Notes under the pieces: model-generated
Database searches by the model: none
What the model was told of the DNA's origin: nothing
Seen by the model: only the letters and a program-made list of their open reading frames with translations
Shown here: positions 4,512 through 34,238 of the stretch, piece by piece
Numbering within the stretch: position 1 is the first letter of the stretch
Layout of the letters: each line of letters starts with the position of its first letter
Made by a program: the position numbers and the translations under genes
Assembly: GCA_002791575.1 (NCBI GenBank)
Contig: PFXI01000040.1
Location: forward strand, 1-35,104
Length of the DNA stretch: 35,104 nucleotides
Source: Zetaproteobacteria bacterium CG_4_9_14_3_um_filter_54_145
GTDB lineage: Bacteria; Pseudomonadota; Zetaproteobacteria; Mariprofundales; Mariprofundaceae
Direction: 5' to 3'

Positions 4512-4790
4512 ATGAGTATATCCGTTCGTATCCCTACCCCGTTGCGCAAGCTGACCGGTGGTGCTGATGAGGTTGTTGTTGAGGCGGCCACTGTCGGTGA
4601 AATGATTGAAGCTATTGAATCTGCACACCCGGGCCTGAAAGAGCGCCTGTGTGACGATGCCGGCGAAATCCGCCGTTTCGTCAACGTCTATGTTAACGAT
4701 GAAGATGTCCGTTTTCTGGATGGTCGCGCGACAGTACTGAAAGACGGTGATGAAGTATCCATCGTGCCGGCTATTGCCGGTGGCCGATAA
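4512..4790 (+). CDS. MoaD/ThiS/CysO-type sulfur carrier protein, C-terminus GGR
   Basis: A 92-residue ubiquitin-like sulfur carrier. It has the beta-grasp pattern of MoaD/CysO: start SVRIPTPLRKLTGG, then a central helix with EAIESAHPGLKERL, then NVYVNDEDVRFLDG, then the tail DGDEVSIVPAIAGG. Such proteins are adenylated at a C-terminal Gly-Gly by an E1 and converted to a thiocarboxylate that donates sulfur; CysO serves cysteine synthesis in Mycobacterium and HcyS serves homocysteine in Wolinella. Here one Arg follows the Gly-Gly, so the active terminus would have to be exposed by trimming. AGGAG lies nine bases upstream of the ATG. It lies between the PLP enzymes and upstream of an E1, which points to amino acid synthesis rather than molybdopterin or thiamine. 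Confidence 0.88.
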   Translation: MSISVRIPTPLRKLTGGADEVVVEAATVGEMIEAIESAHPGLKERLCDDAGEIRRFVNVYVNDEDVRFLDGRATVLKDGDEVSIVPAIAGGR

Positions 4791-4834
4791 GTTTTATTGT
4801 CCATCAGGGCATTGATGCAATCCGGGAGCTGAAT

Positions 4835-5074
4835 ATGAGACTAAGAGTTTATCTGACATTTAATTCGGACACAGTGTGCGAGCCTATTATCTGGAAGCTG
4901 GCCAAAGAATTCGATGTGATGACCAATATCCGCACCGCAGAGGTCAAAGAGAGTACCGGCCTGGTCGGGCTCGAGCTCGAAGGCAAAACAGATGTCGTTG
5001 ATGCAGCGGTGAAATGGCTGGTTGCACAGGGTGTTCATGTCGAGCCCATCGAGCAAAATGTTATCGAAGGCTAG
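4835..5074 (+). CDS. NIL domain protein
   Basis: A 79-residue stand-alone NIL domain, recognised by the pattern of a first beta strand (RVYLTF), PIIWKLAKEFDVMTNIRTAEV, GLVGLELEGK and a final DAAVKWLVAQGVHVEPI. NIL domains otherwise occur at the C-terminus of the methionine importer ATPase MetN, where they bind methionine. They also occur in a ferredoxin-like protein needed for homocysteine formation from aspartate semialdehyde in methanogens. A free NIL protein next to a sulfur carrier and a SAM riboswitch fits a role in homocysteine or methionine synthesis, either sensing methionine or acting as a sulfur-transfer partner. No cysteines are present apart from one near the N-terminus (VCEPI). 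Confidence 0.85.
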   Translation: MRLRVYLTFNSDTVCEPIIWKLAKEFDVMTNIRTAEVKESTGLVGLELEGKTDVVDAAVKWLVAQGVHVEPIEQNVIEG

Positions 5075-5094
5075 CAAGAGATAGTTAAAGGCCT

Positions 5095-5117
5095 TTACCA
5101 CAGAGAAAAGACAATGC
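5095..5117 (+). repeat. Half copy of a CCACAGAG dispersed repeat
   Basis: TTACCACAGAGAAAAGAC resembles the left arm of the palindrome at 6194-6260 but lacks a convincing right arm. The surrounding gap (5075-5254) otherwise shows only the CysK ribosome binding site AAAGGAG. Confidence 0.5.
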
Positions 5118-5254
5118 ATATCTATGTGTGGAATCAGTGGTTGATAGATTGTGATGCGAAGATGAGATAGAAGGGTATGCAGCGGGAGTGCAAGTGTGAC
5201 GCAGAAGCGGGCTTCCTCTCTGTTCTTCGAAAGTGATTGTGAAAGGAGATAGTG

Positions 5255-6187
5255 ATGGCGATATATAACAATGTAGCGGAAACTGTCGGCAATACTCCGC
5301 TGATCCGGCTCAATAGAATTGGCGCGGATCTTGGCGTCGAACTGGTTGCCAAATGCGAGTTTTATAACCCGTTGAATTCGGTTAAGGATCGTATCGGCAA
5401 GGCAATGATTGAAGCCGCCGAAGCAGATGGCAGCCTGAAAGAGGGCGGCGTGATTGTCGAACCTACTTCCGGCAATACCGGTATTGCGCTGGCTTTCGTG
5501 GCTCGCGCCAAGGGCTATCGCTGTATACTGACCATGCCTGAATCGATGAGCATGGAGCGTCGCAAGCTGTTGAAGCTACTGGGCGCGGAGCTTGTGCTTA
5601 CACCTGCCGAGAAGGGCATGAAAGGCGCAATTGCCAGAGCGACTGAGATTGTCTCCGAAATTGACGGGGCATTTATGCCGCAGCAGTTTGAAAATCCGGC
5701 CAATCCGGCCATTCATCGTCAAACCACGGCTGAAGAGATCTGGTCCGATACCGATGGGCAGGTGGATGCTCTGGTTGCCGGTGTCGGTACAGGCGGCACT
5801 ATCAGCGGTACAGCTGAAGTACTCAAGCAGCGCAACCCTGATTTCAAGGCATTTGCCGTTGAGCCGTCCGATTCGCCGGTGATTTCCGGTGGTAATCCGG
5901 GGCCACATAAAATTCAGGGTATCGGGGCTGGTTTTATCCCGAAAAACCTGAATGTCGACATCCTTGATGGTGTGATACAGGTCAGCAATGACGAGGCTCT
6001 GACGATGGCGCGTCGCCTGTCGGATGAAGAGGGGATCCCCGGCGGCATCTCCTCCGGTGCCGCGGTTGCTGCAGCACTGAAGGTGGCAGCACGGGATGAT
6101 ATGAAGGGTAAGCGTATCGTTATCATTCTGCCTTCGATGGCCGAGCGCTATATGTCCACTGACCTGTTCAAGGGCATTGAAGTCTAG
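5255..6187 (+). CDS. cysK: Cysteine synthase A (O-acetylserine sulfhydrylase)
   Basis: A 310-residue PLP enzyme that makes cysteine from O-acetylserine and sulfide. Features seen: [12 protein letters not shown] near the start, the Schiff-base lysine K44 in [18 protein letters not shown] (substrate loop), [33 protein letters not shown] (phosphate cradle), [14 protein letters not shown] and ISSGAAVAA. The whole length aligns in my reading with E. coli CysK rather than CysM. The ATG at 5255 follows AAAGGAG; an in-frame GTG one codon earlier is less likely. It sits inside the sulfur block, between the NIL protein and the E1, and would use sulfide from the downstream reductase or sulfur from the carrier protein. 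Confidence 0.95.
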
Positions 6188-6275: not shown

Positions 6276-7097
6276 ATGATTGATTTTACAGAAGAACAGA
6301 TCGAGCGCTATTCGCGCCATATTATTCTGCCGGAAGTGGGTGCCGAAGGGCAGTCGAAGCTGCTTGAATCCAAGGTATTCATGATCGGTGCCGGTGGACT
6401 GGGCTCGCCCGTGGCCTATTACCTTGCGGCAGCCGGTGTAGGCACGATCGGCATTGCCGATGCTGATGTGGTGGATTCATCCAACCTGCAACGCCAGATT
6501 ATTCATAATCAGGATCGTATCGGCATGCCCAAGGTGGAGAGTGCGCGTGAAACCATGCAGGCACTGAACCCCGATGTGAAGGTCAACACCTACAACTACT
6601 TTATCACCGCAGAGAATGTGCGTGAAATCATCCGGGACTATGATCTGATCATTGATGGTTGCGATAATTTCCCGACCCGTTTCCTGGTCAATGATGCCTG
6701 TTATCTGGAGAAAAAGCCGCTGATTTCCGGTGCCATGTTCCGCTTTGAAGGGCAGGTGGCGACATTCAAGCCGCATCAGCAGAAGGGCGCGCCATGCTAC
6801 CGTTGCCTCTACCCTGAGCCGCCACCGGCAGGGCTCGTCCCGTCCTGCTCCGAGGCTGGTATCCTCGGTGCACTGGCCGGAGCTGTGGGCACTATTCAGG
6901 CGGTTGAGGCGGTGAAAGAGCTGCTCGGTATCGGCGATTCACTGGCCGGTAAGCTGATGGTTTTTGACGCGCTGCGTATGGAGTGGAAGAAGCTGAAGTT
7001 GCACAAGGATCCTGCCTGCCCGCTGTGCGGCGAGAACCCGACGATTACGGATCTGGTCACTTATGAGCAGGCGTGCGAGCTGAAGTTCGGCGAATAA
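6276..7097 (+). CDS. MoeB/ThiF-type E1 sulfur-carrier adenylyltransferase
   Basis: A 273-residue E1-like enzyme that activates the C-terminal glycine of a sulfur carrier by adenylation. Seen: the N-terminal FTEEQIERYSRHIILPEVG signature of MoeB, the nucleotide loop GAGGLG at 38-43, the DSSNLQRQI loop, IDGCDNFPTRFLVND, zinc cysteines C174/C177 and C248/C251, and the conserved Cys C191 in PSCSEAGILG. No C-terminal rhodanese domain is present, unlike MoeZ, so another protein must supply the sulfur; the TusA domain of the next gene is an obvious candidate. GAGG lies nine bases before the ATG. By neighbourhood its substrate is the carrier at 4512-4790; service to MoaD or ThiS elsewhere is also possible. 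Confidence 0.92.
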   Translation: MIDFTEEQIERYSRHIILPEVGAEGQSKLLESKVFMIGAGGLGSPVAYYLAAAGVGTIGIADADVVDSSNLQRQIIHNQDRIGMPKVESARETMQALNPDVKVNTYNYFITAENVREIIRDYDLIIDGCDNFPTRFLVNDACYLEKKPLISGAMFRFEGQVATFKPHQQKGAPCYRCLYPEPPPAGLVPSCSEAGILGALAGAVGTIQAVEAVKELLGIGDSLAGKLMVFDALRMEWKKLKLHKDPACPLCGENPTITDLVTYEQACELKFGE

Positions 7098-7124: not shown

Positions 7125-7150
7125 GCGAAGTAGGTATGGACTTACTTCGC
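7125..7150 (+). other. Perfect hairpin in the leader of the sulfite reductase gene
   Basis: GCGAAGTA (7125-7132) and TACTTCGC (7143-7150) form an 8-bp stem around a 10-base loop. The ATG at 7136 lies in the loop, which argues against it as the start and favours ATG 7187. No T tract follows. Confidence 0.5.
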
Positions 7151-7186
7151 ACGTTCGTGCTCGCGGTAGTGAGTATGGGGTTAACC

Positions 7187-9529
7187 ATGAGTGAATTTGA
7201 TTTTGCGCATACATCCGATGTGGATGAGTTTGATGCCGGCTACAAGGCGTTCAAGGCAGGCACGATGTCTGAAGAGCGTTTCACACCGTTCCGTTTGCAG
7301 ATGGGTGTGTACGGTCAGCGTCAGGAAGGTGTACAGATGGTGCGCGTCAAGTTGCCGGGCGGCAACCTGACTCCGGATCAGCTGGATGTGATCGGTGATT
7401 GTGTGGGCGATTATGCCGGACGTTTGCCAACCGATGGTACCTTGAGCGTGGCACCCGAGAAGTTTGCTCATGTCACGACCCGTCAGGATATTCAGGCCAA
7501 TTTTGTGTCGCTGGATGATGTGCCGGCATTTCTGCGCAGACTGGATGCGGCAGGTTTGACGACGCGGGAAGCCTGTGGTAATACCGTACGTAATGTATCC
7601 ACCTGTTTTCTGGCCGGCTCCTGTCCGGCCGAGCATGCGGATGTGTCGGTGCACGCGCGCCGTTTTGCCGAGTATTTCCTGCGCCATCCGCTGGCCCAGC
7701 AGTTCCCGCGTAAATTCAAGGTCAACTTCTCCGGTTGTGCCACCGACTGCGGTCTTGGCGGCATGCATGATATCGGTTTCATCGCCACCGAGTTGAATGG
7801 TGTGAAAGGTTTCAAGGTATGGGCTGCCGGTGGTTTGTCCTCCCAGCCGATGAGTGCCCTGTTGCTGGAAGCGTTTATTGAAGAGTCACAGATTCTGCTG
7901 GTCGGTGAGGCGCTGATGCGCATGCACTTCAAGTTCTCCGATCGCAAACGGCGCGCCCGTGCACGTCTGAAGTATGTGGCGCAGAAGCTTGGCGCAGAAG
8001 GTTTTGTTGAAGAGTACCGCAGGCAGCGTGCCGTGATTGAAAGTACCCATGCCGCAGATGCAGCTTACCCTGAAGCAAACTGGCGTACGCCGACGGCGGC
8101 CATGTCTCATGCCGATTCCGGCGTGGTGGATCAGCATAATGGTAAGAAAGCGATCCTGCTGAACCTGTTCCGTGGTGATCTGACGCCGGCGCAGTGCCAT
8201 GCCGTAGCTGATGCTGCGCGTGCGGCCGGTACGGATGGCCTGCGTGTGACTACCGAGCAGGGTGTGGTGATTGTCGATGTGGATGCAGCAAATGTGGCTG
8301 CGGCATTGAAGGTGCTCAATGATGCCGGGCTGTTTTCTGAATATGCACGTGGCATTGCCGATGTCGTGGCATGTCCCGGTACCGAAACCTGCAGGCTGGG
8401 TATCACCTCCAGCCGCGGTCTGGCTGAAGCGTTGCAGCCGCTGATGGTCGACCTGAAAAAGGATGCGACGCTGGCCGGTATTACGGTCAAGGCCTCCGGC
8501 TGCCAGCACTCCTGTGGTCGTCACCATATTGCCGATCTGGGTTTCCACGGTATGGCCAAAAAGGTCGCCGGTCAGGCTGTGCCTCACTACCAGCTGCATG
8601 TGGGCGGCTCCGGCGTGGGCGGCTCCCCGCTGGCTTTTGCCTGTGACCCGGTACCGGCAAAATATGCGCCGCAAGCAGGTATTGCTGTGCTGAATGCCTA
8701 CAAGGACGGGCGTGGTAGTGATGAATCCGTGCATGATTGGGCATCGCGTATCGGTAAAGAGGGCATTTCGGCTATTCTGGCGCCATTTGCTGCCGATGCA
8801 GGTGAAGTGGAAGGTCTGATTTACGACTGGAGCGAAAACGAAGCCTTCAATACCAAGGGCAACAAGAAGGGTGAATGTGCCGGTGCCGTACTGTCGATGT
8901 CGGATGCATTGATCTCCGAAGCGGAATATGAGCTGTTGCTGGCGCGTGCGCATGCAGATGCGATGTTCTGGGCGGAAGCTGCTACGGCATTGCGTCGTTC
9001 GGCTATCTCCACCGCGCGGGCATTCCTCGTGGCTTATGGTGAAGCGCCGGAAGATGATAGTCTGGTGTTCGGTCTGCTGGTGGGTAATGCGATCAAGGAT
9101 GCCAAGGTCATGGCCGGTTTTAACGCCGTGCAGTCGGCACTGATGAATATCGATCTGGGTAATCCCGGGCCGGGTGTTACCAGCCTGAAGCGCGTTCAGC
9201 GTGACTGGCTGGCATTGGCTCAGGTCCGTTTCGCAGCCGTACCCGCAGCTGTTGAAGTGAAAGCTGAAGAGAGAGTTGAGAAGCCTGCTTCAGCAGAGAT
9301 GACGCTGCTGGATCTCTCCGGCGTGGCTTGCCCGATGAACTTTGTCAAAACCAAGATCAAGCTTGCGATGATGCCTGTTGGCTCACAACTTGCTGTGATT
9401 CTTGATGATGGCGCGCCTATTAAAAATGTGCCGCTTTCGCTTGAAGAGCAGGGGCAGAAGATAGTGGCCAAAGAGCAACTGTCTGCCACCCAGTGGCGCA
9501 TTGTCGTCGAGAAATCTTCACAGATCTGA
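7187..9529 (+). CDS. Siroheme sulfite reductase with C-terminal TusA domain
   Basis: A 780-residue fusion. The front 550 residues are a duplicated nitrite/sulfite reductase. The second half carries the canonical siroheme-[4Fe-4S] cysteines C396-X5-C402-X36-C439-X3-C443 (in CPGTETC and GCQHSCGRH). The first half also has a full set, C140-X5-C146-X37-C184-X3-C188. A helical segment follows (about 575-690). From about 700 there is a TusA-like domain with LSGVACPMNF, active Cys C715, which normally carries a persulfide. The enzyme should reduce sulfite to sulfide in the cytosol; assimilatory context (cysDNH) favours sulfite over nitrite. ATG 7187 is preferred to 7136, since the earlier start lies inside a hairpin loop and the family start MSEFDF fits. 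The stop overlaps the next start (TGATG). Confidence 0.9.
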   Translation: MSEFDFAHTSDVDEFDAGYKAFKAGTMSEERFTPFRLQMGVYGQRQEGVQMVRVKLPGGNLTPDQLDVIGDCVGDYAGRLPTDGTLSVAPEKFAHVTTRQDIQANFVSLDDVPAFLRRLDAAGLTTREACGNTVRNVSTCFLAGSCPAEHADVSVHARRFAEYFLRHPLAQQFPRKFKVNFSGCATDCGLGGMHDIGFIATELNGVKGFKVWAAGGLSSQPMSALLLEAFIEESQILLVGEALMRMHFKFSDRKRRARARLKYVAQKLGAEGFVEEYRRQRAVIESTHAADAAYPEANWRTPTAAMSHADSGVVDQHNGKKAILLNLFRGDLTPAQCHAVADAARAAGTDGLRVTTEQGVVIVDVDAANVAAALKVLNDAGLFSEYARGIADVVACPGTETCRLGITSSRGLAEALQPLMVDLKKDATLAGITVKASGCQHSCGRHHIADLGFHGMAKKVAGQAVPHYQLHVGGSGVGGSPLAFACDPVPAKYAPQAGIAVLNAYKDGRGSDESVHDWASRIGKEGISAILAPFAADAGEVEGLIYDWSENEAFNTKGNKKGECAGAVLSMSDALISEAEYELLLARAHADAMFWAEAATALRRSAISTARAFLVAYGEAPEDDSLVFGLLVGNAIKDAKVMAGFNAVQSALMNIDLGNPGPGVTSLKRVQRDWLALAQVRFAAVPAAVEVKAEERVEKPASAEMTLLDLSGVACPMNFVKTKIKLAMMPVGSQLAVILDDGAPIKNVPLSLEEQGQKIVAKEQLSATQWRIVVEKSSQI

Positions 9530-12174
9530 TGCGTTCAACAGATCTTCACCCCTTTGCCAACCCCGGACGAACCAAGCTATCGCTGGTCAGCCGGGGCCTG
9601 GCACTGCCGGAAGGTCTGCCGGCGTCATCACGCTGGATTGCGCAGGCGAATGCGACGGAATCGGTTGTCGATATCCGCCTGTCATCGGGTCATCTCTGCA
9701 CGGTACCTGTGGGGCAGCCATATACAGAACGCAGTACCTATAAACTGCTTTCGGATGATGAAGGATTTTACCTCGACTGTGCCGGCGAATGCGAGCGGGT
9801 GGAGCTGGTAGAGACGCCCGCTTTTTACCGTAAGAAAACCAGAAGTGGCGCACGCATGGGTAATATCTCATCGCTGCATGACCGGCTGTTGATGCTCTAT
9901 CCGACCATGGGCTGTGGCTTTTTTGCCATACAGGGGGCGGCTTGCCAGTACTGCCAGTATGATTCCATGCTCAATGAAGATGAACCGCCGATGCGCGATC
10001 CGCTGGAGCTGGTCGAGGTCGTGCGTGCAGCACTGGCTGAACGCGAAATCGATACGGTCTATCTCTATAACGGTTTTTCACCGGCGCCGGATGTGGGGCT
10101 CTCCCGCCTGTTGCCGGTGATTGCCCTGCTGCGCAGGCATCTGCCTCATCAGCAGATTGCGCTGGAAACCGTTGCCCCGCAAGAGCTCAAGGTCATTGAT
10201 GAACTCTACGATGCAGGCCTGGATATTTTTGTCTGCAATCTGGAAGTTGCTGATGCAACACGTTTTGCCGAGATCTGCCCGGGCAAGGCAAATCATGGTG
10301 GACAGTCCCGGATCTGGGAAGCGCTGCGTTATGCGCGCTCGGTGTTCCGTCCGGGCACGGTGGTGAGCCACCTGATTGTCGGGCTGGAGCCTTTACAATC
10401 AACGATCGCCGGCATGAAAGATCTGGTTCATAGTGGCGTGGTGCCGCTGCTGATCCCCTTTCGCCCGCTGCCCGCTACGCCGTTAAAGGATCAGCCGCTG
10501 CCCAGTCTGGACGATGTTGAACAGGCATTGCTCAGTCAGTCGGAGCTGGTTATCTCCTCTGCGCTGCCGACACACCGGCTGCGTGATATGGGACGAGTGC
10601 TTACACCGATGGAGAGCCGGGTACTTGATGGTATCGCGCCGTCACTGCAGCAGCGCTTTGTTGTTTCGTCCGTCGGTCGCAAGCTGGAGGGCTGGTTTGA
10701 CAGTTTGCGCCGCCATGTTTTACTCAGTGACAAGCAACAGGGGCATGTTGCGCCTGCGCAGCCGGCGGCAAGACATTCGGCATCTTCGCTATTGATGCGT
10801 CAGAGTATTCCGTTTGTGTTGATGGCGCTGATCGCTGCTATCACTTATGCCCTGCTTCAGCTGCCGGCACCTGCCGGTCTTTCCGGGCCCGGCTGGCACG
10901 CGTTGCTCGTCTTCGGGGTCTGCCTTGTGCTATGGGTGAGTCAATTGCTGCCGCTGTCAGTGACCTCCCTGCTGGGTATGGCGCTACTACCCATCGTCGG
11001 GGCAATGTCTTCGGCCGATGTCTATGCCCTGTTCGGCAACACGGCCGTATTCTTTATTCTCGGTGCCTTTATTCTGGCGTCAGGCATTATGAAGTCCGGC
11101 CTTTCCGAGCATCTGGCACTGGCGGTGTTTAAGCGTTTTAATGCAAGCTCGCGTACGCTGCTCCTGAGTATGCTGCTGCTGCCTGCGCTGATGGCCTGCT
11201 TTATGCCCGAGCATGCGGTGGCTGCTGTTTTACTGCCCATTGTCTGGAGTATTGTGCACGGGCTGGGACTGAAGCCGGGCAATCGCTATGCCGCCGCCAT
11301 TTTTCTTGCCATGGCCTGGGGGGCGGTGATTGGCGGTGTCATGACCCTGCTTGGTGGTGCTCGCGGACCGCTGGCGATGGCGATCGTCGGGGAGATGACC
11401 GGTAAAGGGTTCTCTTTTGTCGACTGGACACTGGCAGCAGCGCCCATGGTGATCGGTGTATTGCTGGTTGCAGCCCTCATACTGCTGAAGCTGGTGCCGC
11501 ATGACGGCATCGATATGCAGGGTGCCAGAAAACGCATTGAGCAGCGGCAACTGGAACTCGGCCATATGGATGTGCGCGGCAAGGCCATGGCGCTGCTGAT
11601 GCTGGTGACGATGATGGCCTGGATATTCCTCGGCGACAGCATCGGGCTTGCCACGATCGCACTGGTTGCTGTTGTGGCGATGTTCGCCTTACGGATTGTC
11701 GGCTGGAAAGAGATTCAATCGCATATCGACTGGGGTGTGGTGCTGATGTACGGCGGCGCTATCGCCATTGCCACGTCGCTGCAAAAGACAGGCGCAGCAG
11801 AGTGGGTTGCCACATCATTCTGGCCGGCCGGGGTGACAGGTATTGCCATCCTGATATTGATTGCGCTGTTCACGATGTTGCTGACCGAGGGTATCAGCAA
11901 CTCGGCAGCCGTGGCCATTATGCTGCCGATTGCGATTCCAATGGCTGCACTCTCCGGTATTGATCCGATTACCACGGCTCTCGCTGTCGGTATTGTCTCC
12001 GGCTTTGCCTTTATGTTGCCGATGGGGACCCCGCCAAATGCCATGGTTTATGGTACCGGATATGTACGCTTGGGTGATATGATGCGTTTTGGTGGCATAT
12101 TGTTGCTCTCCGCACTGCTACTGTTTGCCCTTACTGTTACTTTCTGGTGGCCGCTCTGGGGTTTTGCGGCATGA
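9529..12174 (+). CDS. Radical SAM domain fused to DASS/SLC13 sodium-anion symporter
   Basis: An 881-residue two-part protein. Residues 1-120 are unassigned. Residues 120-370 look like a radical SAM domain: cysteines C129-X9-C139-X2-C142 in GCGFFAIQG and ACQYCQYD, followed by TVYLYNGFSP, ALETVAPQELKVIDELYDAG, a Cys/Asn segment and HLIVGLEPLQSTIAGMKDL, a TIM-barrel-like order. The CX9CX2C spacing differs from the usual CX3CX2C and recalls the Elp3 group. From about residue 424 to the end is a polytopic transporter of the DASS family, with the paired motifs SNSAAVAIMLPIAIP and PMGTPPNAMVYGTGY. The transporter half could import sulfate or another sulfur oxyanion for the pathway; the reaction of the radical SAM half is unknown. 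Its ATG overlaps the sulfite reductase stop and its stop overlaps the cysH start. Confidence 0.85.
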   Translation: MRSTDLHPFANPGRTKLSLVSRGLALPEGLPASSRWIAQANATESVVDIRLSSGHLCTVPVGQPYTERSTYKLLSDDEGFYLDCAGECERVELVETPAFYRKKTRSGARMGNISSLHDRLLMLYPTMGCGFFAIQGAACQYCQYDSMLNEDEPPMRDPLELVEVVRAALAEREIDTVYLYNGFSPAPDVGLSRLLPVIALLRRHLPHQQIALETVAPQELKVIDELYDAGLDIFVCNLEVADATRFAEICPGKANHGGQSRIWEALRYARSVFRPGTVVSHLIVGLEPLQSTIAGMKDLVHSGVVPLLIPFRPLPATPLKDQPLPSLDDVEQALLSQSELVISSALPTHRLRDMGRVLTPMESRVLDGIAPSLQQRFVVSSVGRKLEGWFDSLRRHVLLSDKQQGHVAPAQPAARHSASSLLMRQSIPFVLMALIAAITYALLQLPAPAGLSGPGWHALLVFGVCLVLWVSQLLPLSVTSLLGMALLPIVGAMSSADVYALFGNTAVFFILGAFILASGIMKSGLSEHLALAVFKRFNASSRTLLLSMLLLPALMACFMPEHAVAAVLLPIVWSIVHGLGLKPGNRYAAAIFLAMAWGAVIGGVMTLLGGARGPLAMAIVGEMTGKGFSFVDWTLAAAPMVIGVLLVAALILLKLVPHDGIDMQGARKRIEQRQLELGHMDVRGKAMALLMLVTMMAWIFLGDSIGLATIALVAVVAMFALRIVGWKEIQSHIDWGVVLMYGGAIAIATSLQKTGAAEWVATSFWPAGVTGIAILILIALFTMLLTEGISNSAAVAIMLPIAIPMAALSGIDPITTALAVGIVSGFAFMLPMGTPPNAMVYGTGYVRLGDMMRFGGILLLSALLLFALTVTFWWPLWGFAA

Positions 12175-12894
12175 CGATGGCAGATGAAGTGATGCATCAG
12201 AAGATCGATGCAAGCCTGCTGTTATTACGAGAGGCAGTAGCCCGCTACGGGGAGGGGATTGTCTACCCCACCAGCCTGGGCTCACAGGCTATTGTGCTGA
12301 TTGATCTGATCTGTCGCCATATTCCCACTCTTCGCATTGTGACCCTGGATACAGGGCGTTTACCTCAGCAGACCTATGATTTGATGGATAGGCTGCGTGA
12401 GCATGAATGTACTCTTCCCCGACGCAGGTGAGGCGGGGAAGATGGTAGGTGAGCATGGCGTAAACCTGTTTTATCACTCTGTAGCCAAGCGAAAATTATG
12501 TTGCGCTGTACGCAAGGTGAACCCTTTGCAGCAGGAGCTGGCAGGCATGCAGGCATGGATTACCGGCCGCAGGCGGGATCAGGAAAGCCGGTCACAGATC
12601 AGTCTGGTAGAGGATGATCCGGTGTACGGATTGAAAAAGTATAACCCGATGCTGGACTGGACGGAAACAGATGTCTGGACCTATATCAGGGAGCATGACC
12701 TGCCGTATAACGACCTGCATGACAGCCATTATGTCTCCATAGGCTGCGCTTGCTGTACGCGTGCAATTAGTACGGGGGAAGATCCCCGTTCAGGCCGCTG
12801 GTGGTGGGAAAATAAAGATACGCTGGCAGAATGCGGCCTGCATGTGAGTAGTCTGGCCCGACCGGGTGAGGGTGAATCCGGTGAAGGGATTTAA
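12171..12894 (+). pseudogene. cysH: Frameshifted APS reductase (adenylylsulfate reductase)
   Basis: Two overlapping frames together spell one CysH of about 240 residues. The first (12171-12431) covers the N-terminal part with VYPTSLGSQAIVLIDL (PP-loop region) and TLDTGRLPQQTYDLMDRLREH, then leaves the family pattern and stops at 12429. The second (GTG 12397 or ATG 12403 to 12894) resumes with MNVLFPDAGEAGKMVGEHGVN. It continues with KLCCAVRKVNPL, GRRRDQ and GCACCTRAI. The CC plus CxxC set marks a [4Fe-4S] APS reductase, matching the absence of cysC nearby. The shift lies at about 12400-12405, where the downstream frame is +1 relative to upstream and a few residues usual in the family appear lost. 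It may be a real mutation, a base-calling error or two separately translated halves. Its start overlaps the upstream stop (ATGA). Confidence 0.85.
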
Positions 12895-12956
12895 CATTGA
12901 ATAGTGCAGGCGATCCATGTCAGTGTGGAGCCTGTAAACAGGAAATGGTGGAAATG

Positions 12957-13865
12957 ATGTCAGAACACAAGTTAACACAATTAAAAGCTCTGGAAGCCGA
13001 GTCCATTCACATTATCCGTGAGGTGGTGGCGGAGTTCCGCAATCCGGTGATGCTCTATTCGGTGGGTAAGGATTCGAGTGTACTGCTGCATCTGGCCCGC
13101 AAGGCATTTCATCCGGCGCCGATTCCGTTTTCTCTGCTACATGTCGATACCGGCTTCAAGTTCAAGGAGATGTACGAATTCCGCGATGCTTTCTGCAAGG
13201 AGATCGGCGCAAATCTGATCGTGCGTAAAAATGAGGATGCTATTGCCAAGGGCATGAATCCGAAAGATTTTGGCGTGGCACGCTGCTGCGGCGCGCTGAA
13301 AACGCAGGGTCTGCTTGATGCACTGGAAGAGGGCGAATATGACGCGGCCTTTGGCGGCGCACGTCGTGATGAGGAGCGATCCCGCGCCAAGGAGCGCGTG
13401 TTTTCCATGCGTGACGAGTTTGGCCAGTGGGATCCGAAGAGCCAGCGTCCCGAGTTGTGGAGCATCTACAACGGACGTATCCACGATGGTGAGTCGGTAC
13501 GTGTGTTTCCTATTTCGAACTGGACTGAGATGGATATCTGGCTCTATATCCGCGAAGAGAAGATCCCGATTGTACCACTCTATTTTGCCAGGGAACGGCT
13601 GATGGTTGAACGCAAACATCTGCTTATTCCATACTATGAAGAGATGAAGGATCAGTTGCTGGAGGGTGAAGAGCCAAAAATGGTGATGAGCCGTTTCCGT
13701 ACGCTGGGCTGTAGCCCCTGTACCGGTGCGATCCGTTCGGATGCCGTCAATATGGATGAAATTGTTATTGAAGCAGCAGCATCGCGCCGCTCGGAGCGCG
13801 AGACACGCATCATTGATCACGGCTCCAATTCGATGGAAGACAAGAAAAAAGAAGGCTATTTCTAG
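12957..13865 (+). CDS. cysD: Sulfate adenylyltransferase subunit 2
   Basis: A 302-residue ATP sulfurylase small subunit, which with CysN forms adenosine phosphosulfate from ATP and sulfate. Seen: the standard start [19 protein letters not shown], the PP-loop YSVGKDSSV at 34-42, [47 protein letters not shown] and the conserved end [11 protein letters not shown]. The frame is open back to a TTG at 12897, which would add 20 residues with CQCGAC; ATG 12957, after GGTGGAAATG, matches family length and is preferred. It follows cysH by about 60 bases. Confidence 0.96.
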
Positions 13866-13966: not shown

Positions 13967-15247
13967 ATGACTGAAGTAAATTTTAAACTGGTTGAAGAAG
14001 TCGAACTGCTGCGTCTGGTGACGGTGGGCAGTGTCGATGATGGTAAATCAACATTGATTGGTCGCCTGCTGGTCGATACCAAGGGTGCGTTCGAAGATCA
14101 GCTGCTGGCAGTGCGCAAGCTCAAGGGCAAAGAGAGCATTGCATCCGCAGCCGATATCGATCTGGCCATGCTGACTGACGGCCTGTCGGCTGAGCGTGAG
14201 CAGGGGATCACCATCGATGTGGCTTACCGTTATTTTGCCACGCCGAAACGCAAGTTTATTATGGCCGATTGTCCGGGCCATGAGCAGTACACCCGTAATA
14301 TGGTGACCGGTGCTTCTACTGCCAGTGCTGCCATCATCCTGATTGATGCACGTAGCGGCGTGATGCCGCAGACCAAGCGTCACACGCATATTATCGGCCT
14401 GCTGGGCATCCCGCATCTGATAGTGGCGGTGAACAAGATGGATCTGGTCGGCTTTGATCAGGCTGTGTTCGAGAAGATTCGTGCAGAGATGAATGAATAC
14501 TGCGCCAAACAGGGCGTGAAGGATCTGATCTGCATTCCGATATCGGCGCTTGATGGCGACATGGTCGCCGTGCGCGGTGATAATCTGGGCTGGTACGAAG
14601 GCAAGGCACTGCTGGAAACGCTGGAGTCGCTGCCTGCGCTGGGTGATATCGATCGCCTGCCCTTCCGCTTGCCTGTGCAGCTGGTGAACCGGCCGCAGAC
14701 GGCGGCATTACCGGATTACCGTGGCTTTATGGGCACGATCGCTTCCGGTACCATCAGGGTTGGTGATGAAATCATCGCGGTGCCCAGTGGTAACACCTCG
14801 ACGGTCAAAGAGATTGTCACCTTTGATGGCAATCTGCAGGAGGCCTTTGCACCGCAGAGTATCACGCTGACACTGAATGATAATATTGATATTTCGCGTG
14901 GTGATATGATTACCCGTGTCGGTGAAAAAACCGGTGATTCCAAAGATCTGACAGCCAATGTCTGCTGGATCGGTGATGAGCCTTTGAGTGCGCGCAAGAA
15001 GTATATCATCAAGCACACGACCAATTCGGTAAAAGCCATGGTGGCGAGTGTCGATTTCAAGACCGATATCCATACGCTTGATCATCTGGATGCGGATGAG
15101 CTGGCGATGAATGAAATCGGTCGCATCACCTTTAAACTGCAGCAACCGCTGCATTATGACAGCTATACGGATAACCGGGCGACCGGCAGCTTTATCCTGA
15201 TTGATACCTTTACCAACAACACTGTTGGTGCCGGTATGATTGCCTGA
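13967..15247 (+). CDS. cysN: Sulfate adenylyltransferase subunit 1 (GTPase)
   Basis: A 426-residue GTPase subunit of ATP sulfurylase that couples GTP hydrolysis to APS formation. G1 is GSVDDGKS at 21-28, then the switch segment DGLSAEREQGITIDVAYRYF, G3 DCPGHEQYT, G4 NKMDLVGF and the G5-like ISALDGD, followed by EF-Tu-like beta barrels. It is shorter than the 475-residue E. coli CysN and has no fused CysC kinase, which fits an APS (not PAPS) route with the [4Fe-4S] CysH upstream. Its leader ends GAGTATTGGGGTTTT before ATG, similar to the sequence before the sulfite reductase start. It is the last gene of the block. Confidence 0.95.
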   Translation: MTEVNFKLVEEVELLRLVTVGSVDDGKSTLIGRLLVDTKGAFEDQLLAVRKLKGKESIASAADIDLAMLTDGLSAEREQGITIDVAYRYFATPKRKFIMADCPGHEQYTRNMVTGASTASAAIILIDARSGVMPQTKRHTHIIGLLGIPHLIVAVNKMDLVGFDQAVFEKIRAEMNEYCAKQGVKDLICIPISALDGDMVAVRGDNLGWYEGKALLETLESLPALGDIDRLPFRLPVQLVNRPQTAALPDYRGFMGTIASGTIRVGDEIIAVPSGNTSTVKEIVTFDGNLQEAFAPQSITLTLNDNIDISRGDMITRVGEKTGDSKDLTANVCWIGDEPLSARKKYIIKHTTNSVKAMVASVDFKTDIHTLDHLDADELAMNEIGRITFKLQQPLHYDSYTDNRATGSFILIDTFTNNTVGAGMIA

Positions 15248-28191: not shown

Positions 28192-28455
28192 AGGCTGAAT
28201 AGTGGCTGATTAAGCAGTGCGGTCAAAGGACTATTTTAATCGGGTTGGCAGTACAATGCAGGGGTGTCAGGTGATTGGATGTGCGGGTAAATCGGCTGGG
28301 GGAAGCTTTCAATGCTTTTCCATCGGAGGAATCAAGGTAGACTTGCCGTTGTAAGTGTCGCTATTCGCTGTCTGGCAGCGATGCTGGCGTGGTGATTGAT
28401 TGTTACTGTTGAGGCGGTAAAGGCAGAAAGGTTGAGTACACAGAGGGAGCTACCA
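28192..28455. other. Divergent region between alr and the CDP-sugar cluster
   Basis: About 260 bases without a supported gene. It should carry the promoters for alr (-) and rfbF (+). No strong -35/-10 pair was found. The right end holds GAGGGAG (28443-28449), the ribosome binding site of rfbF. Confidence 0.45.
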
Positions 28456-29223
28456 TTGAAAGCAGTTATTCTTGCCGGCGGGCTTGGCACTAGAATCTCC
28501 GAAGAGACGCACCTCAGGCCCAAACCGATGATCGAGATCGGAGGCAAGCCGGTTCTCTGGCATATCATGAAGACCTATAGCGCTCATGGTATCCATGATT
28601 TTATTATCTGTTGCGGATATAAAGGTTATATGATCAAGGAGTATTTTGCTAACTACTATCTGCATACTTCAGATGTAACATTTGATATGGCCAACAACTC
28701 AATGGAAGTGATTCAGAATACAGCCGAGCCGTGGAAGGTGACGCTAGTGGATACTGGTGAAAATTCGATGACCGGCGGGCGTTTGAAGCGGGTGGCCGAA
28801 TATCTGGGAGATGAGGACTTTTGTTTCACCTATGGCGATGGTGTTTCCAATGTGAATGTGTCCGAGCTAATTCGCTTTCATAAAGAGCAGGGGTGTTTGG
28901 CTACTGTCACCGCAGTGCAACCACCTGGCCGCTTTGGTTCCCTTGATTTTCAGGATAAAAAGATAGTCGATTTTGAGGAGAAGCCGCACGGCGATGGTGG
29001 CTGGATCAATGGCGGTTATTTCGTACTATCACCCAAGGTGATTGAGCGGATCGAAGGGGATGCAACCTCATGGGAGTTGGCTCCCTTGAAGAGCTTGGCA
29101 GCCGAAGGTGAGCTGGCAGCATTCAAACACGATGGTTTTTGGCAACCGATGGATACCCTACGCGACAAAACACACCTTGAGGCGTTATGGGATGCTGGTG
29201 AAGCACCCTGGAAGGTTTGGTAG
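28456..29223 (+). CDS. rfbF: Glucose-1-phosphate cytidylyltransferase
   Basis: A 255-residue nucleotidyltransferase that makes CDP-glucose, the first step of CDP-linked deoxysugars. Seen: [24 protein letters not shown] (nucleotide-binding signature at 2-25), [26 protein letters not shown] (metal-binding Asp), [11 protein letters not shown] and [11 protein letters not shown]. These match RfbF/DdhA closely. TTG 28456 is taken as start since it follows GAGGGAG by six bases and gives the family N-terminus; the frame is open to 28396. It overlaps rfbG by one base. Confidence 0.93.
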
Positions 29224-30290
29224 TGACACCCATCTTCTGGAAAGGGAAGCGTGTATTTGTAACCGGCCACACAGGCTTCAAGGGTAGCTGGCTCTGCATG
29301 TGGCTAGGGTCACTGGGGGCAGAGGTCACCGGCTATGCATTGGCTCCTGTTACCTCTCCGAGCTTGTTTGATGCAGCGAATATCGGCAACGGGATGGCGT
29401 CTGTAATCGGGGATGTTCGTGACAGGGATAGCTTGGCCCATGCTATGCAGCAAGCGCGTCCTGAGGTAGTGATCCATATGGCGGCGCAGGCTCTGGTGCG
29501 CTACTCCTATCACCACCCGGTTGAAACCTATGAAGTCAATGTGATGGGTACTGTTAACCTGCTGGAAGCAGTTCGCGGCTGTGATTCAGTGAAGAGTGTA
29601 TTGGTGATCACCAGCGACAAGTGTTATGAAAATAGGGAGCGGGAATCAGGTTACCGGGAAGATGAAGCCATGGGGGGCTTTGACCCCTACTCGAACAGCA
29701 AGGGGTGTGCCGAGCTGGTTGTGTCTGCTTACAGGCAGAGTTTTTTTGATGAAGGTAACAAAGTGGGTCTGGCAACTGCCCGGGCAGGAAATGTGATCGG
29801 GGGCGGAGACTGGTCAGCTGACAGGTTGTTTCCCGATATGGTACGTGCCTTTACTGCAGGTGAGAGTGTCGTGATACGTAACCCCGGTTCAGTTCGCCCC
29901 TGGCAGCATGTGTTTGAGGCGCTGCATGGTTATCTGTTGCTGCTGGAGCAGATGGCTGTTCAGCCTTCTGCCTTGTCGCAGCCTTGGAATTTCGGCCCGG
30001 CCGATGTCGATGCGCGTGATGTGGCCTGGATCGTCGGGCAGTTTGTGCATACGTGGGGCAATGCCGAGTGGCGGGTTGAACCGGATGCGGCCAATTTGCA
30101 CGAAGCTCACCTGCTCAGGCTTGATTGCAGCAAGGCAAGGCGTGAGCTGAACTGGGAGCCGATACTGGAGTTGGAGCAGGCGATAGCGTGGATAGCAGAC
30201 TGGTATCGAAGTTTTTATGAAGGTTGTGATATGCGTGCGCTCTCTCTGGAGCAGTTGAGCGAATTTCAGAGTCGGGCTGGCCAACGGTGA
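29223..30290 (+). CDS. rfbG: CDP-glucose 4,6-dehydratase
   Basis: A 355-residue short-chain dehydrogenase/reductase that turns CDP-glucose into CDP-4-keto-6-deoxyglucose. Seen: the NAD loop TGHTGFKGSW (14-23), HMAAQALVRYSY, VITSDKCYEN, the catalytic Y156-x3-K160 in PYSNSKG, ARAGNVIGGGDWSADRL and PWQHVFEALHGYL. Matches RfbG/DdhB. A GTG at 29223 with GGAAGG seven bases before it is chosen, so the gene begins at the last base of the rfbF stop codon. Confidence 0.94.
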   Translation: MTPIFWKGKRVFVTGHTGFKGSWLCMWLGSLGAEVTGYALAPVTSPSLFDAANIGNGMASVIGDVRDRDSLAHAMQQARPEVVIHMAAQALVRYSYHHPVETYEVNVMGTVNLLEAVRGCDSVKSVLVITSDKCYENRERESGYREDEAMGGFDPYSNSKGCAELVVSAYRQSFFDEGNKVGLATARAGNVIGGGDWSADRLFPDMVRAFTAGESVVIRNPGSVRPWQHVFEALHGYLLLLEQMAVQPSALSQPWNFGPADVDARDVAWIVGQFVHTWGNAEWRVEPDAANLHEAHLLRLDCSKARRELNWEPILELEQAIAWIADWYRSFYEGCDMRALSLEQLSEFQSRAGQR

Positions 30291-30341
30291 CTGATACTTT
30301 CAAGATTTCACCGTTCCTTTTGATACTGTGAATTATTGCAT

Positions 30342-30893
30342 ATGAATCTGCTCCCTACAAAAATAGCTGGCGTGATGGTGGCTGAAACGACCAGGGTTGC
30401 AGATCACCGTGGAGCATTCGCACGTTTCTTCTGTGAAGATGAGTTAGCGCCTGTACTGGGTAATCGGCATATTGTGCAGGTCAACCATTCGCGGACGAGC
30501 CAGCCGGGTGCTGTACGCGGCATGCACTTTCAGCATGCTCCGCATGCAGAAACGAAGATGGTGCGCTGCATCAAGGGGCGGGTTTGGGATGTAGCGGTAG
30601 ACCTGCGCCGGAACTCACCAACATTTCTGCAATGGCATGCGGTTGAGCTGTCGGCAGAAAATGACCTGATGATGGTCATTCCCGAAGGTTGCGCGCACGG
30701 TTTCCAGGTGCTGGAGGCGGAGAGTGAGCTGCTCTATCTGCATACGGCCTGTTATACACCGACATGCGAAGGTGGCGTGTGCTATGATGACCCGCTGATT
30801 GATATTCACTGGCCGCTAGCGGTTACAGATATCTCTGATCGGGATCAATTACATCCGTTGCTGGATGAGCATTATTCTGGAGTTAAACTATGA
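30342..30893 (+). CDS. RfbC-like sugar 3,5-epimerase
   Basis: A 183-residue cupin of the dTDP-4-dehydrorhamnose 3,5-epimerase family. Seen: DHRGAFARFF, VNHSRTSQPGAVRGMHFQ with the catalytic His H62, VRCIKGRVWDVAVDLRRNSPTF (catalytic Asp region), PEGCAHGFQVLE and YLHTACYTP. By neighbourhood the substrate is probably CDP-4-keto-6-deoxyglucose rather than the dTDP sugar. The sequence lacks a clear ribosome binding site before ATG 30342. Its stop overlaps the next start (ATGA). Confidence 0.88.
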   Translation: MNLLPTKIAGVMVAETTRVADHRGAFARFFCEDELAPVLGNRHIVQVNHSRTSQPGAVRGMHFQHAPHAETKMVRCIKGRVWDVAVDLRRNSPTFLQWHAVELSAENDLMMVIPEGCAHGFQVLEAESELLYLHTACYTPTCEGGVCYDDPLIDIHWPLAVTDISDRDQLHPLLDEHYSGVKL

Positions 30894-32113
30894 ACTGCCG
30901 TCATTGTGGCAAAGCATTGCAGCATCAGTTTCTGGATCTGGGTTTCGCGCCGCCATCCAACGCCTATCTAAATCCGGCGGATCTGCATGCACCGGAGCTC
31001 TACTTTCCGCTGAAGCTGCATGTCTGTGATGACTGCTGGCTGGTGCAGACCGAGGATTATGCGCGTTCGGATGAGCTGTTCACCGAAGACTATGCCTATT
31101 TCTCATCTACCTCTTCCGGTTGGATGCGCCATGCCAGGGAATATTGCGGCATGATCAGCGATCGTCTGCACCTGAATGAAGAGAGCTTTGTGATCGAAGT
31201 AGCATCCAATGATGGTTATCTCCTGCGCAACTTTGTTGCGGCGGGTGTTCCCTGTCTGGGGGTTGAACCGACTGACAGCACTGCCGATGCGGCAGAGCAG
31301 CTGAATATTCCTGTAATTAGGAAGTTTTTTGGCCAGTCTTTGGCTGAGCAACTCGTCGCAGAGAATAAGCAGGCCGATCTGATTCTGGGCAATAATGTTT
31401 ACGCCCATGTCCCTGATATCAATGATTTCACCATGGGGCTAAAAACTGCGTTGAAGCCGGGCGGTACAATCACACTGGAGTTTCCACACCTGCTCAATCT
31501 GATTCAACTTAACCAGTTTGATACGGTCTACCACGAACATTACTCCTATCTGTCGCTGTATAGCGTACAGCGCATTTTTGAGCGTGCAGGCTTGGTCATT
31601 TACGATGTGGAACAATTGCCAACCCACGGAGGCAGTTTGCGGATTTACGGTTGCCATGCGGATGCCGGTCTGGAGATCTGTCCGGCTGTGGAGGCAGTGC
31701 TGGCAGCGGAGCTGGCGGCAGGCATGCGTGAGCTGGATGTCTATCTGGCTTTTCAGCCCAAGGCGGATCGTGTGAAAAACGATTTGCTGCAGTTTCTGAT
31801 TGAGCAGAAACTGCAGGGGAAAACAGTCGCGGCTTATGGCGCTGCGGCCAAGGGTAATACATTGCTAAATTATGCCGGTGTGAGGCCGGATCTGTTGTCG
31901 TTTGTCTGTGATGCCGCTGCCGCCAAGCAGGGCAAGTATATGCCAGGCAGTCATATTCCTATTCTGGCGCCCGAAGCTATGGCTCGCTACAAACCGGATT
32001 TTGTTGTCATTCTTCCGTGGAACATCAGTGAAGAGGTCATGCGCAGCAACGTATTTGTACGTGAATGGGGCGGACAGTTTGTGACCGCTGTGCCTGAGCT
32101 GAAGATCCAGTGA
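30890..32113 (+). CDS. NDP-sugar C-methyltransferase (TylC3/NovU-like)
   Basis: A 407-residue three-part methyltransferase. It has an N-terminal zinc module (C3, C6, C46, C49), a class I SAM-binding domain (VIEVASNDGYLL near 102-113, then NNVYAHVPD), the YHEHYSYLS segment typical of sugar C-3 methyltransferases, and a C-terminal Rossmann-like module (AYGAAAKGNTLLNY). The order and motifs match TylC3, NovU and TcaB9, which put a methyl group on the C-3 (or C-5) of 4-keto-6-deoxysugars. In this cluster it would convert the RfbG or epimerase product to a branched sugar. Coupled to the epimerase gene. Confidence 0.88.
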   Translation: MNCRHCGKALQHQFLDLGFAPPSNAYLNPADLHAPELYFPLKLHVCDDCWLVQTEDYARSDELFTEDYAYFSSTSSGWMRHAREYCGMISDRLHLNEESFVIEVASNDGYLLRNFVAAGVPCLGVEPTDSTADAAEQLNIPVIRKFFGQSLAEQLVAENKQADLILGNNVYAHVPDINDFTMGLKTALKPGGTITLEFPHLLNLIQLNQFDTVYHEHYSYLSLYSVQRIFERAGLVIYDVEQLPTHGGSLRIYGCHADAGLEICPAVEAVLAAELAAGMRELDVYLAFQPKADRVKNDLLQFLIEQKLQGKTVAAYGAAAKGNTLLNYAGVRPDLLSFVCDAAAAKQGKYMPGSHIPILAPEAMARYKPDFVVILPWNISEEVMRSNVFVREWGGQFVTAVPELKIQ

Positions 32114-32167
32114 TATTGCCGATTGAATATGGCTCTTTGATTTGCCCTGTCGTCGGGGCTTGATGCG

Positions 32168-33091
32168 ATGAAGCGCGTTATTGTCACCGGGGCGAGCGGA
32201 TTTATCGGTCGTTATACCTTGCAGATGCTGGTTCAGGCCGGTTTTGAAGTGCATGCAGTCAGTCGAGATCCTGATCCCAAGTTATGCGAGGGTGTGCTCT
32301 GGCATCATCTGGATATCATGGATGATCGCAGTGCTGGAGCACTTTGTTCCAGCATAGAGGCCACCCACCTAATGCATCTGGCGTGGTATACCGAGCATGG
32401 CAAGTTCTGGCATGCTGGCGAGAATCTGGATTGGGTGGCTTGCAGTCTGCGTTTGCTCAAACAGTTCGTGCAATATGGTGGTCAGCGTGTAGTGATGGCG
32501 GGTAGCTGTGCGGAGTATGACTGGAGCAGGGTGGATTGCTGTTCTGAAGATCAGACACCTTGCAATCCGGCGACGCTGTACGGTGTAAGCAAACATGCGC
32601 TGCATCAGGTTGCAGCAGCCTATTGTCGCAATCATCAGGTGGAGCTTGCCTGGGGGCGTGTATTCTTTCTCTATGGGCCGGGGGAGACGGGGAGCCGCTT
32701 TGTACCGGCTGTGGTCAACGGGCTCCTGCGACAGGAGTCAGTACCGTGCTCCAGTGGTGTGCAGGTCCGTGATTTTATGCATGTCGCAGATGTGGCATCT
32801 GCATTTGTTGCCCTGCTTGTGAGTGAGGCGAGCGGCGCTATCAATATTGCTTCCGGAGACTCTCATACGCTGAGGGGAATTGGAGAAGAGGCTATGCGCC
32901 AAATCAAGGGAGAAGGAGCGGTGGTGTTTGGTGCTTTGCCGGATCGTCAGGGGGATCCCGCCATGTTGACTGCAGATGTTACCCGCTTGCGCGATGGGGT
33001 AGGTTGGTCTCCTGCATACTCACTGGAGCAAGGGCTGGCCGAAACGATCGCATGGTGGAAGCAGAACAGGGAGGAGAATGATGCCAGATAA
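32168..33091 (+). CDS. NAD(P)-dependent sugar epimerase/reductase
   Basis: A 307-residue extended SDR protein. Seen: the cofactor loop VTGASGFIG (6-14), LMHLAWYTEH, VMAGSCAEYDW, the catalytic Y138-x3-K142 in LYGVSKHAL, VFFLYGPGE and VRDFMHVADVASAF. Within the cluster it most likely reduces the 4-keto group after C-methylation, finishing the branched deoxysugar; epimerase action cannot be excluded. Its end overlaps the next gene by 11 bases. Confidence 0.86.
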   Translation: MKRVIVTGASGFIGRYTLQMLVQAGFEVHAVSRDPDPKLCEGVLWHHLDIMDDRSAGALCSSIEATHLMHLAWYTEHGKFWHAGENLDWVACSLRLLKQFVQYGGQRVVMAGSCAEYDWSRVDCCSEDQTPCNPATLYGVSKHALHQVAAAYCRNHQVELAWGRVFFLYGPGETGSRFVPAVVNGLLRQESVPCSSGVQVRDFMHVADVASAFVALLVSEASGAINIASGDSHTLRGIGEEAMRQIKGEGAVVFGALPDRQGDPAMLTADVTRLRDGVGWSPAYSLEQGLAETIAWWKQNREENDAR

Positions 33092-34232
33092 AAGCTGCCC
33101 ACTGTGTGCCTCACGCAGGTTGTCGCAGTTTCTGCACAGGTCCAATGTACCCGTGCACCAGAACCTGTTGATGCAGACTCGCGAACAGGCCATGGATATT
33201 GTGCGCGGTGACCTTGCTATGACAGTCTGTATTGATTGCGGTTTTGTGTTTAATGCTGCATTTGACCCTGCGAAGCTTAATTATGGTGAGAGCTATGATA
33301 ATAATCAGGGCTGCTCCTCCAGTTTTCAACAGCATCTGGATGATCTGGTTGGGTTGCTGATCGATAGCAAAGGCGTCCGTAACAAGCAGGTTGTTGAGGT
33401 CGGTTGTGGCCAAGGGCAGTTCTTGCAGCGTCTTGTGCGGGAGGGTGGAAACAGCGGCGTTGGTTTTGATCCGAGTTATTCGGGGCCAGAGGAATTACTG
33501 GACGGGCGCATGCGCTTTGAGTCTCGATATTATGATGAGAGTTGTACGGCTGTGCCTGCTGATGTGGTGATATGCAGGCATGTAATTGAGCATGTCCCTG
33601 ATCCGGTTGCCCTGCTCAGATCGGTGCGTGCCGCTATAGGTGAGCGCAGCAGTGCCAAGGTCTATTTTGAAACACCTTGCGTGGAGTGGATTTTGAGCAA
33701 TGGTGTAGTATGGGATTTCTTTTATGAGCACTGCTCGCTGTTTACTGCAGAGTCGCTTACAACCGCATTCGAGATGGCCGGTTTCCGTGTGGATGAGGTG
33801 AGACATATTTTTGGCGGGCAGTACCTGTGGCTGGAGGCAAGTCCGGTTGTGTCAACAGTTACGCTGGATGGGGAGAGGATATCTGATCTGGCTGCCTTAT
33901 TTTCCCGTGAGGAGAAGCAGCTATACCGTGACTGGCAGAGCAGAATTGCAGGCTATGCCCGAACGGGACGAGTGGCCTTGTGGGGCGCTGGCGCAAAAGG
34001 TGCTACATTTGCCAATCTTATTGATCCGGGGCGTGAACTTATTGACTGTCTGGTTGACCTGAATCCCAATAAACAGGGGAAGTATGTGGCTGGGAGTGGT
34101 CATGCTATAGTGGATCCGCAGCAGCTTGGGGAGCGGGGCGTGACGGATGTGGTGCTGATGAATCCGAACTACCGGGATGAGAATATGATGATATTAAAAC
34201 AGGCTGGAATTAGCCTGAATATGATAGAGTAG
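33081..34232 (+). CDS. Second multidomain SAM-dependent methyltransferase
   Basis: A 383-residue protein with the same plan as the C-methyltransferase at 30890 but well diverged. It has an N-terminal CPLC (C6, C9) and later CIDC zinc module, a SAM domain with VVEVGCGQGQFL and RHVIEHVPDP, YEHCSLFTAESL in the place of the sugar-methyltransferase His motif, and a C-terminal LWGAGAKGATFANL module. It may act on the same or another sugar of the polysaccharide. The ATG at 33081 has GGGAGGAG five bases before it and is preferred over 33078. Confidence 0.82.
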   Translation: MPDKSCPLCASRRLSQFLHRSNVPVHQNLLMQTREQAMDIVRGDLAMTVCIDCGFVFNAAFDPAKLNYGESYDNNQGCSSSFQQHLDDLVGLLIDSKGVRNKQVVEVGCGQGQFLQRLVREGGNSGVGFDPSYSGPEELLDGRMRFESRYYDESCTAVPADVVICRHVIEHVPDPVALLRSVRAAIGERSSAKVYFETPCVEWILSNGVVWDFFYEHCSLFTAESLTTAFEMAGFRVDEVRHIFGGQYLWLEASPVVSTVTLDGERISDLAALFSREEKQLYRDWQSRIAGYARTGRVALWGAGAKGATFANLIDPGRELIDCLVDLNPNKQGKYVAGSGHAIVDPQQLGERGVTDVVLMNPNYRDENMMILKQAGISLNMIE

Positions 34233-34238
34233 GGTGCT

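Follow-up and report, generated by a model that had tools for sequence, protein, structure and literature searches.

Proteins of the DASS (SLC13) family differ in how they couple anion transport. VcINDY has two SNT motifs, which contact the substrate and contribute to the Na1 and Na2 sites; in the exchanger LaINDY the Na1 site is filled by an arginine that a glutamate holds (PMC7553777). Bacterial DASS proteins that carry sulfate are known; PerO and the DASS sulfate permeases of sulfate reducers, which we liken to the present protein by description only, belong to the same superfamily and have the same proposed cargo, and the accessible part of the source reports no radical SAM domain on any of them (PMC5840216). 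On the enzyme side, the nearest described relatives are the radical SAM proteins of the MSMEG_0568/Nit1C type (TIGR04043, within NF045502), and the predicted barrel is shared with BioB, LipA, HydE and PylB. To our knowledge, the fusion of a radical SAM enzyme with a secondary transporter has not been described before, and a search of the open-licence literature found no published example of such a fusion.

Here, we describe a radical SAM–DASS fusion from Zetaproteobacteria bacterium CG_4_9_14_3_um_filter_54_145, encoded in a stretch of 35 104 nucleotides (contig PFXI01000040.1; referred to below as the window). The fusion is conserved across the class Zetaproteobacteria, marine iron oxidisers, and lies within an operon of sulfur assimilation.

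The fusion gene and its distribution

Positions 9529–12174 of the plus strand form a single open frame of 881 codons. An in-frame GTG is present upstream at 9493, yet the N-termini of homologues align to the ATG at 9529. This ATG shares bases with the stop codon of the sulfite reductase gene (TGATG) and the fusion stop shares bases with the ATG of cysH (ATGA), confirming the overlapping-codon coupling given in the preliminary description. The encoded protein consists of a radical SAM domain with an N-terminal β-domain (about residues 1–396; 9529–10716), a variable linker delineated by pLDDT and dN/dS (residues 397–420; 10717–10788) and a DASS-family anion permease domain (residues 421–881 plus the stop; 10789–12174), all on the plus strand. 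The linker coincides with the least confident stretch of the fusion model (pLDDT below 50 at residues 397–425) and has a dN/dS of 0.27 between the window and Mariprofundus ferrooxydans PV-1. Its length stays near 20 residues across the fused relatives. In the same comparison the ratios are 0.053 for the radical SAM part and 0.078 for the permease, values indicative of strong purifying selection on both halves. The fusion model has a pTM of 0.56, with low confidence in the placement of one domain relative to the other. Seven lysines or arginines fall within residues 380–424. Since the N-terminus of VcINDY is cytoplasmic, the radical SAM domain of the fusion would likewise be placed in the cytoplasm.

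The best match outside the window's own genome is that of M. ferrooxydans PV-1, with 92% identity over the whole length, and the host itself is placed in Mariprofundus. A scan reaching close relatives only, with one genome per species, found 25 loci, all in Zetaproteobacteria, and the fusion recurs in most relatives at 54–92% identity. Among 398 sampled genomes of the phylum, the radical SAM gene is present in 73 of the 78 that are zetaproteobacterial, the five genomes without it being 57–88% complete; outside the zetaproteobacterial order, the best radical SAM match in this sample scored 65.6 bits. Both parts occur together at 57 loci, of which 49 are fused and seven are split; in the remaining one (L117) the frame is kept but interrupted by one internal stop. 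The split loci consist of two adjacent genes, mutually out of frame; that natural splits keep the two parts as neighbours argues that they belong together. On the tree the split state needs two changes, with one possible, and the split versions group in one or two neighbouring lineages, which speaks against a stop lost in this strain; the root of this tree is unsure and its sole outgroup (G041) has a very long branch, making gain and loss of the fusion indistinguishable. At one locus (L104, 3969–5343, genome G161) the permease half is interrupted, falling into two frames, and the enzyme half is open.

The occurrence of split versions might be taken to mean that a lost stop codon or a misassembly joined two genes in this strain. 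However, the PV-1 protein and dozens of independent assemblies carry the same fusion, with the linker held at some 20 residues, which rules out such an artefact, as well as a chance joining, for practical purposes and leaves it a negligible probability. The fusion is a stable natural state, widespread in the class, and the preliminary description of one continuous frame joining the two parts is borne out by the open frame, by Pfam matches to both halves (PF04055 and PF00939; see below) and by its recurrence in relatives.

The radical SAM domain

PF04055 matches residues 138–286 (E = 6.5e-8; 33.4 bits against a cut-off of 29.5), and the domain also scores above the cut-off of NF045502, an NCBIfam model for variant radical SAM proteins (173.7 against 125 bits), but below that of TIGR04043, the MSMEG_0568 family (97.7 against 303.7 bits). 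The cysteines of the CX9CX2C motif noticed earlier, C129, C139 and C142, are shared without exception by 28 fused homologues; further invariant residues of this part are C236, C250, E213, T214, N237, E239, R312 and R356. An AlphaFold model of the enzyme domain built from 25 zetaproteobacterial sequences has a mean pLDDT of 85, and its best matches in the PDB are HydE, lipoyl synthase (LipA), biotin synthase (BioB), PylB and ThiH (E down to 2e-9, TM-scores to the targets of about 0.5–0.6). The N-terminal part is thus predicted to fold as a radical SAM barrel of the BioB/HydE/LipA type, in agreement with the barrel order first read from the sequence. All of the structure models were computed without cofactors. 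The location of the invariant residues E213, T214, C236, R312 and R356 at the C-terminal ends of the barrel strands suggests a defined active site. FVCNLE, HLIVGLE and PGTPL in the fusion resemble what we take to be the BioB segments YNHNLD, GGIVGLGE and KGTPL, and presumably include the counterparts of the BioB-type SAM-binding motifs. The domain is predicted from these features to be catalytically active in a [4Fe-4S]- and SAM-dependent manner.

The cysteines of the second ([2Fe-2S]) cluster of BioB and of the N-terminal cluster (CX4CX5C) of LipA, at the positions that we assume for these auxiliary ligands, find no counterpart in the alignments, making sulfur insertion by a BioB or LipA mechanism unlikely. 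The window's own genome also encodes BioB, LipA, HemN, HemW, MiaB, NifB, RlmN and others, so that the enzyme does not replace any of those named; a stand-in for BioB or LipA, in particular, is ruled out. No SPASM/twitch part and no RiPP-recognition or leader-binding part was found in the radical SAM domain. Given this lack of a peptide-handling domain and a fold group that acts mostly on small molecules, the substrate is probably a small molecule.

The MSMEG_0568 proteins share with the fusion the CX9CX2C motif, the N-terminal β-domain, the GTPL and (I/L)xGL(E/D) motifs and about 27% identity. Nine relatives from outside the class were compared and eight of them display the MSMEG_0568 features, including the CX9CX2C spacing of the window protein; the exception (L180) is of another kind. 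One of the nine, from Aquabacterium, is annotated as MSMEG_0568 and lies inside a nitrilase cluster, the usual context of that family, whereas the fusion sits in a cysteine operon. The MSMEG_0568 proteins also possess a C-terminal GC(G/A)(K/R)CGACS cluster that is missing from the window protein, which has the invariant C236 and C250 instead. The absence of this cluster leads us to treat the radical SAM part, as judged from its sequence, as a subfamily separate from the MSMEG_0568 proteins.

The permease domain

The C-terminal half was described earlier as a complete DASS transporter, and the profile matches agree: PF00939 covers residues 433–876 (E = 5.4e-66) and TIGR00785, the DASS family model, is matched over its full length (positions 1–444 of 444) with 280.4 bits against a cut-off of 198.6. 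Foldseek matches of the permease domain include human NaCT and NaS1 and bacterial VcINDY, with TM-scores to target of up to 0.88. VcINDY, NaS1 and LaINDY share with it the fold of the whole domain and the second-repeat SN and TPPN motifs (here S790–N791 and residues 834–837), but have SNT and TPPN in the first repeat, where the fusion has PEH (560–562) and GGAR (609–612), and they lack its large N-terminal enzyme domain. The earlier statement that both the SN and the TPPN motifs are conserved hence holds for the second repeat and fails for the first. PEH and GGAR are invariant throughout the zetaproteobacterial set; in the second repeat SN is retained and the other motif is mostly TPPN or TPAN. 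DASS-C sodium symporters are recognized by SNT in both repeats, and in the window protein and all aligned zetaproteobacterial sequences PEH occupies the first of these positions. With the first-repeat motifs replaced, sodium coupling appears doubtful, and of the designation 'DASS sodium–anion symporter' the family assignment stands and the sodium symport is open to question. R612 or H562 may take the place of a sodium ion.

The same substitution defines a DASS subclade with (P/G)EH(A/T)VA and GGAR instead of the first-repeat SNT and TPPN. The E-H and A-R pattern is common to five non-zetaproteobacterial DASS proteins (L064, L146, L147, L148 and L162), and the classical DASS proteins compared keep SNT and (T/S)PPN. 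A universal stress protein gene directly adjoins three non-zetaproteobacterial genes of this EH/AR type (L069, L169 and L170), one of which is also near a SulP gene, and the subclade seems to favour cytoplasmic nucleotide-binding partners. From the operon context we would guess that the cargo of the fusion permease is sulfate. A role as the only sulfate importer is not supported, as SulP homologues, which may carry sulfate, are present in nearly all of the relatives.

The sulfur operon

The gene order in the window is thrC, a ThiS/SAMP1-type carrier, a NIL protein, cysK, moeB, sulfite reductase–TusA, the fusion, a broken cysH, cysD and cysN. On the plus strand these comprise a ThiS/MoaD/SAMP1-type sulfur carrier ending in GGR (4512–4790; PF02597, with NF041918 for SAMP1 above cut-off), a NIL-domain protein (4835–5074; PF09383), cysteine synthase CysK (5252–6187; TIGR01139 above cut-off), a MoeB/ThiF/HesA adenylyltransferase of the kind that activates a sulfur carrier (6276–7097; PF00899, PRK05690 above cut-off), an assimilatory-type sulfite/nitrite reductase fused to a TusA domain (7136–9529; PF01077, PF03460 and PF01206), cysH for PAPS/APS reductase (12171–12894), and the small and large subunits of sulfate adenylyltransferase, CysD (12897–13865; TIGR02039 above cut-off) and CysN (13967–15247; TIGR02034 above cut-off). 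The reductase is NirA/CobG-like, with TusA at its C-terminus, and a similar C-terminal stretch is seen in G041. By analogy with the CysO or HcyS systems, the carrier, NIL protein and CysK (4512–6187), together with MoeB, suggest protein-thiocarboxylate-dependent synthesis of cysteine (or methionine). Elsewhere in the window are an iron–sulfur carrier of the ApbC/Mrp type, a P-loop NTPase, near the start of the contig (922–2010, minus strand) and a deoxysugar cluster (28396–35003) with a nucleotidyltransferase, epimerases, a dTDP-sugar isomerase, C-methyltransferases and a rhamnosyl O-methyltransferase-like gene.

Compared with its counterpart in M. ferrooxydans PV-1, the cysH gene of the operon has lost 14 bases and is thereby disrupted, and several relatives have no cysH at this position. 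An intact copy exists elsewhere in the same genome (G000:C22:16366-17001), and most relatives also have one elsewhere, ruling out the fusion as a substitute for the missing reductase. Sulfite reductase–TusA is the immediate upstream neighbour of the enzyme/permease pair in 49 of the 51 testable loci, the immediate downstream neighbour is cysH or cysD in 48 of 53, and a ThiS-type carrier lies about 5 kb upstream in many relatives. At three loci (L061, L063 and L071) the downstream cysH/cysD is gone and the sulfite reductase link is kept. G041, from the nearest class outside Zetaproteobacteria and the one genome that a search of that class yielded, has cysK, moeB, cysH, sulfite reductase–TusA, ATP sulfurylase and an EH/AR DASS gene but no radical SAM gene; the permease, then, probably joined the operon before, or independently of, the enzyme.

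Proposed function and alternatives

We tentatively favour, at somewhat less than even probability, a membrane-tethered radical SAM enzyme that works on a small sulfur compound as it enters the cell, a role already entertained in the preliminary description. The fusion is a natural two-domain protein, co-translated with sulfite reductase–TusA inside a sulfur-carrier cysteine operon. Its enzyme part would lie on the cytoplasmic face, and a flexible linker would connect it with the N-terminus of the DASS-type permease. The permease would import a sulfur oxyanion, sulfate and/or an organosulfur dianion, and the radical SAM domain would reductively cleave SAM to give a 5′-deoxyadenosyl radical that attacks a small sulfur compound on entry. 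That the substrate is the imported compound itself is a guess; were it an organosulfonate, the reaction would yield sulfite, which the reductase encoded next to the fusion could use. In this most specific form, which we consider unlikely, the radical SAM domain would receive an organosulfur dianion from the permease attached to it and break the C–S bond, and the sulfite would pass to the co-translated reductase; if true, a transporter would chemically transform its own cargo by radical chemistry. The persistence of the sulfite reductase link at the three loci devoid of downstream cysH/cysD favours an enzyme at the point of entry. Against it, the route from sulfate import through CysDN, CysH and sulfite reductase to CysK is complete without a radical SAM step, and G041, whose operon is of the same type and includes an EH/AR DASS and ATP sulfurylase, has no such enzyme. 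Zetaproteobacteria, moreover, live as microaerophiles, and oxygen interferes with radical SAM chemistry.

The main rival, rather less probable in our estimate, is a sensor role: from the cytoplasm, the radical SAM domain would gate the permease, binding SAM and/or reading iron–sulfur redox state and so providing feedback on uptake. SAM is the final product of the assimilation of sulfur, a cytoplasmic domain on a transporter generally has a regulatory role, and NIL, STAS, CBS and RCK domains regulate other transporters; a NIL-domain protein is encoded in this very operon, and the nucleotide-binding universal stress proteins beside the EH/AR permeases offer a precedent. Yet invariance extends to the cluster cysteines and all of the active-site rim, beyond the needs of a SAM-binding sensor, and the domain is a free protein in seven loci. 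Those same split genes would suit an enzyme that works on a small molecule or a sulfur carrier of the cysteine pathway, such as the ThiS-type carrier or the TusA branch, next to a plain sulfate importer to which it is linked merely by a tether or by co-expression. The carrier, MoeB, CysK and TusA-fused reductase of the operon are in keeping with this, as is a sulfite reductase that adjoins the pair even where cysHDN has moved away, but the enzyme lacks an auxiliary cluster like that of BioB or LipA with which to insert sulfur, and the fusion is retained in most lineages, suggesting that the tether matters; we hold this possibility, too, to be on the doubtful side. Of the functional ideas put forward at the outset, modification of the transporter ranks last; chemical modification of the permease, or of another operon protein, by the radical SAM domain is improbable overall. 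Direct fusion provides the proximity, and LipA, of the same fold group, acts on a protein-bound substrate; the domain nevertheless belongs to the mostly small-molecule BioB/HydE class, is devoid of the SPASM/twitch or leader-binding parts, and has an EH/AR permease counterpart in G041 that occurs without it.

Because of the fusion, an uncharacterised subfamily of radical SAM proteins can be linked to sulfur assimilation throughout a class of marine iron-oxidising bacteria, and its function thereby becomes testable. The DASS subclade to which its permease belongs, with invariant Glu-His and Arg in place of the first-repeat sodium and substrate motifs, represents a natural test of cation coupling in SLC13-type carriers.
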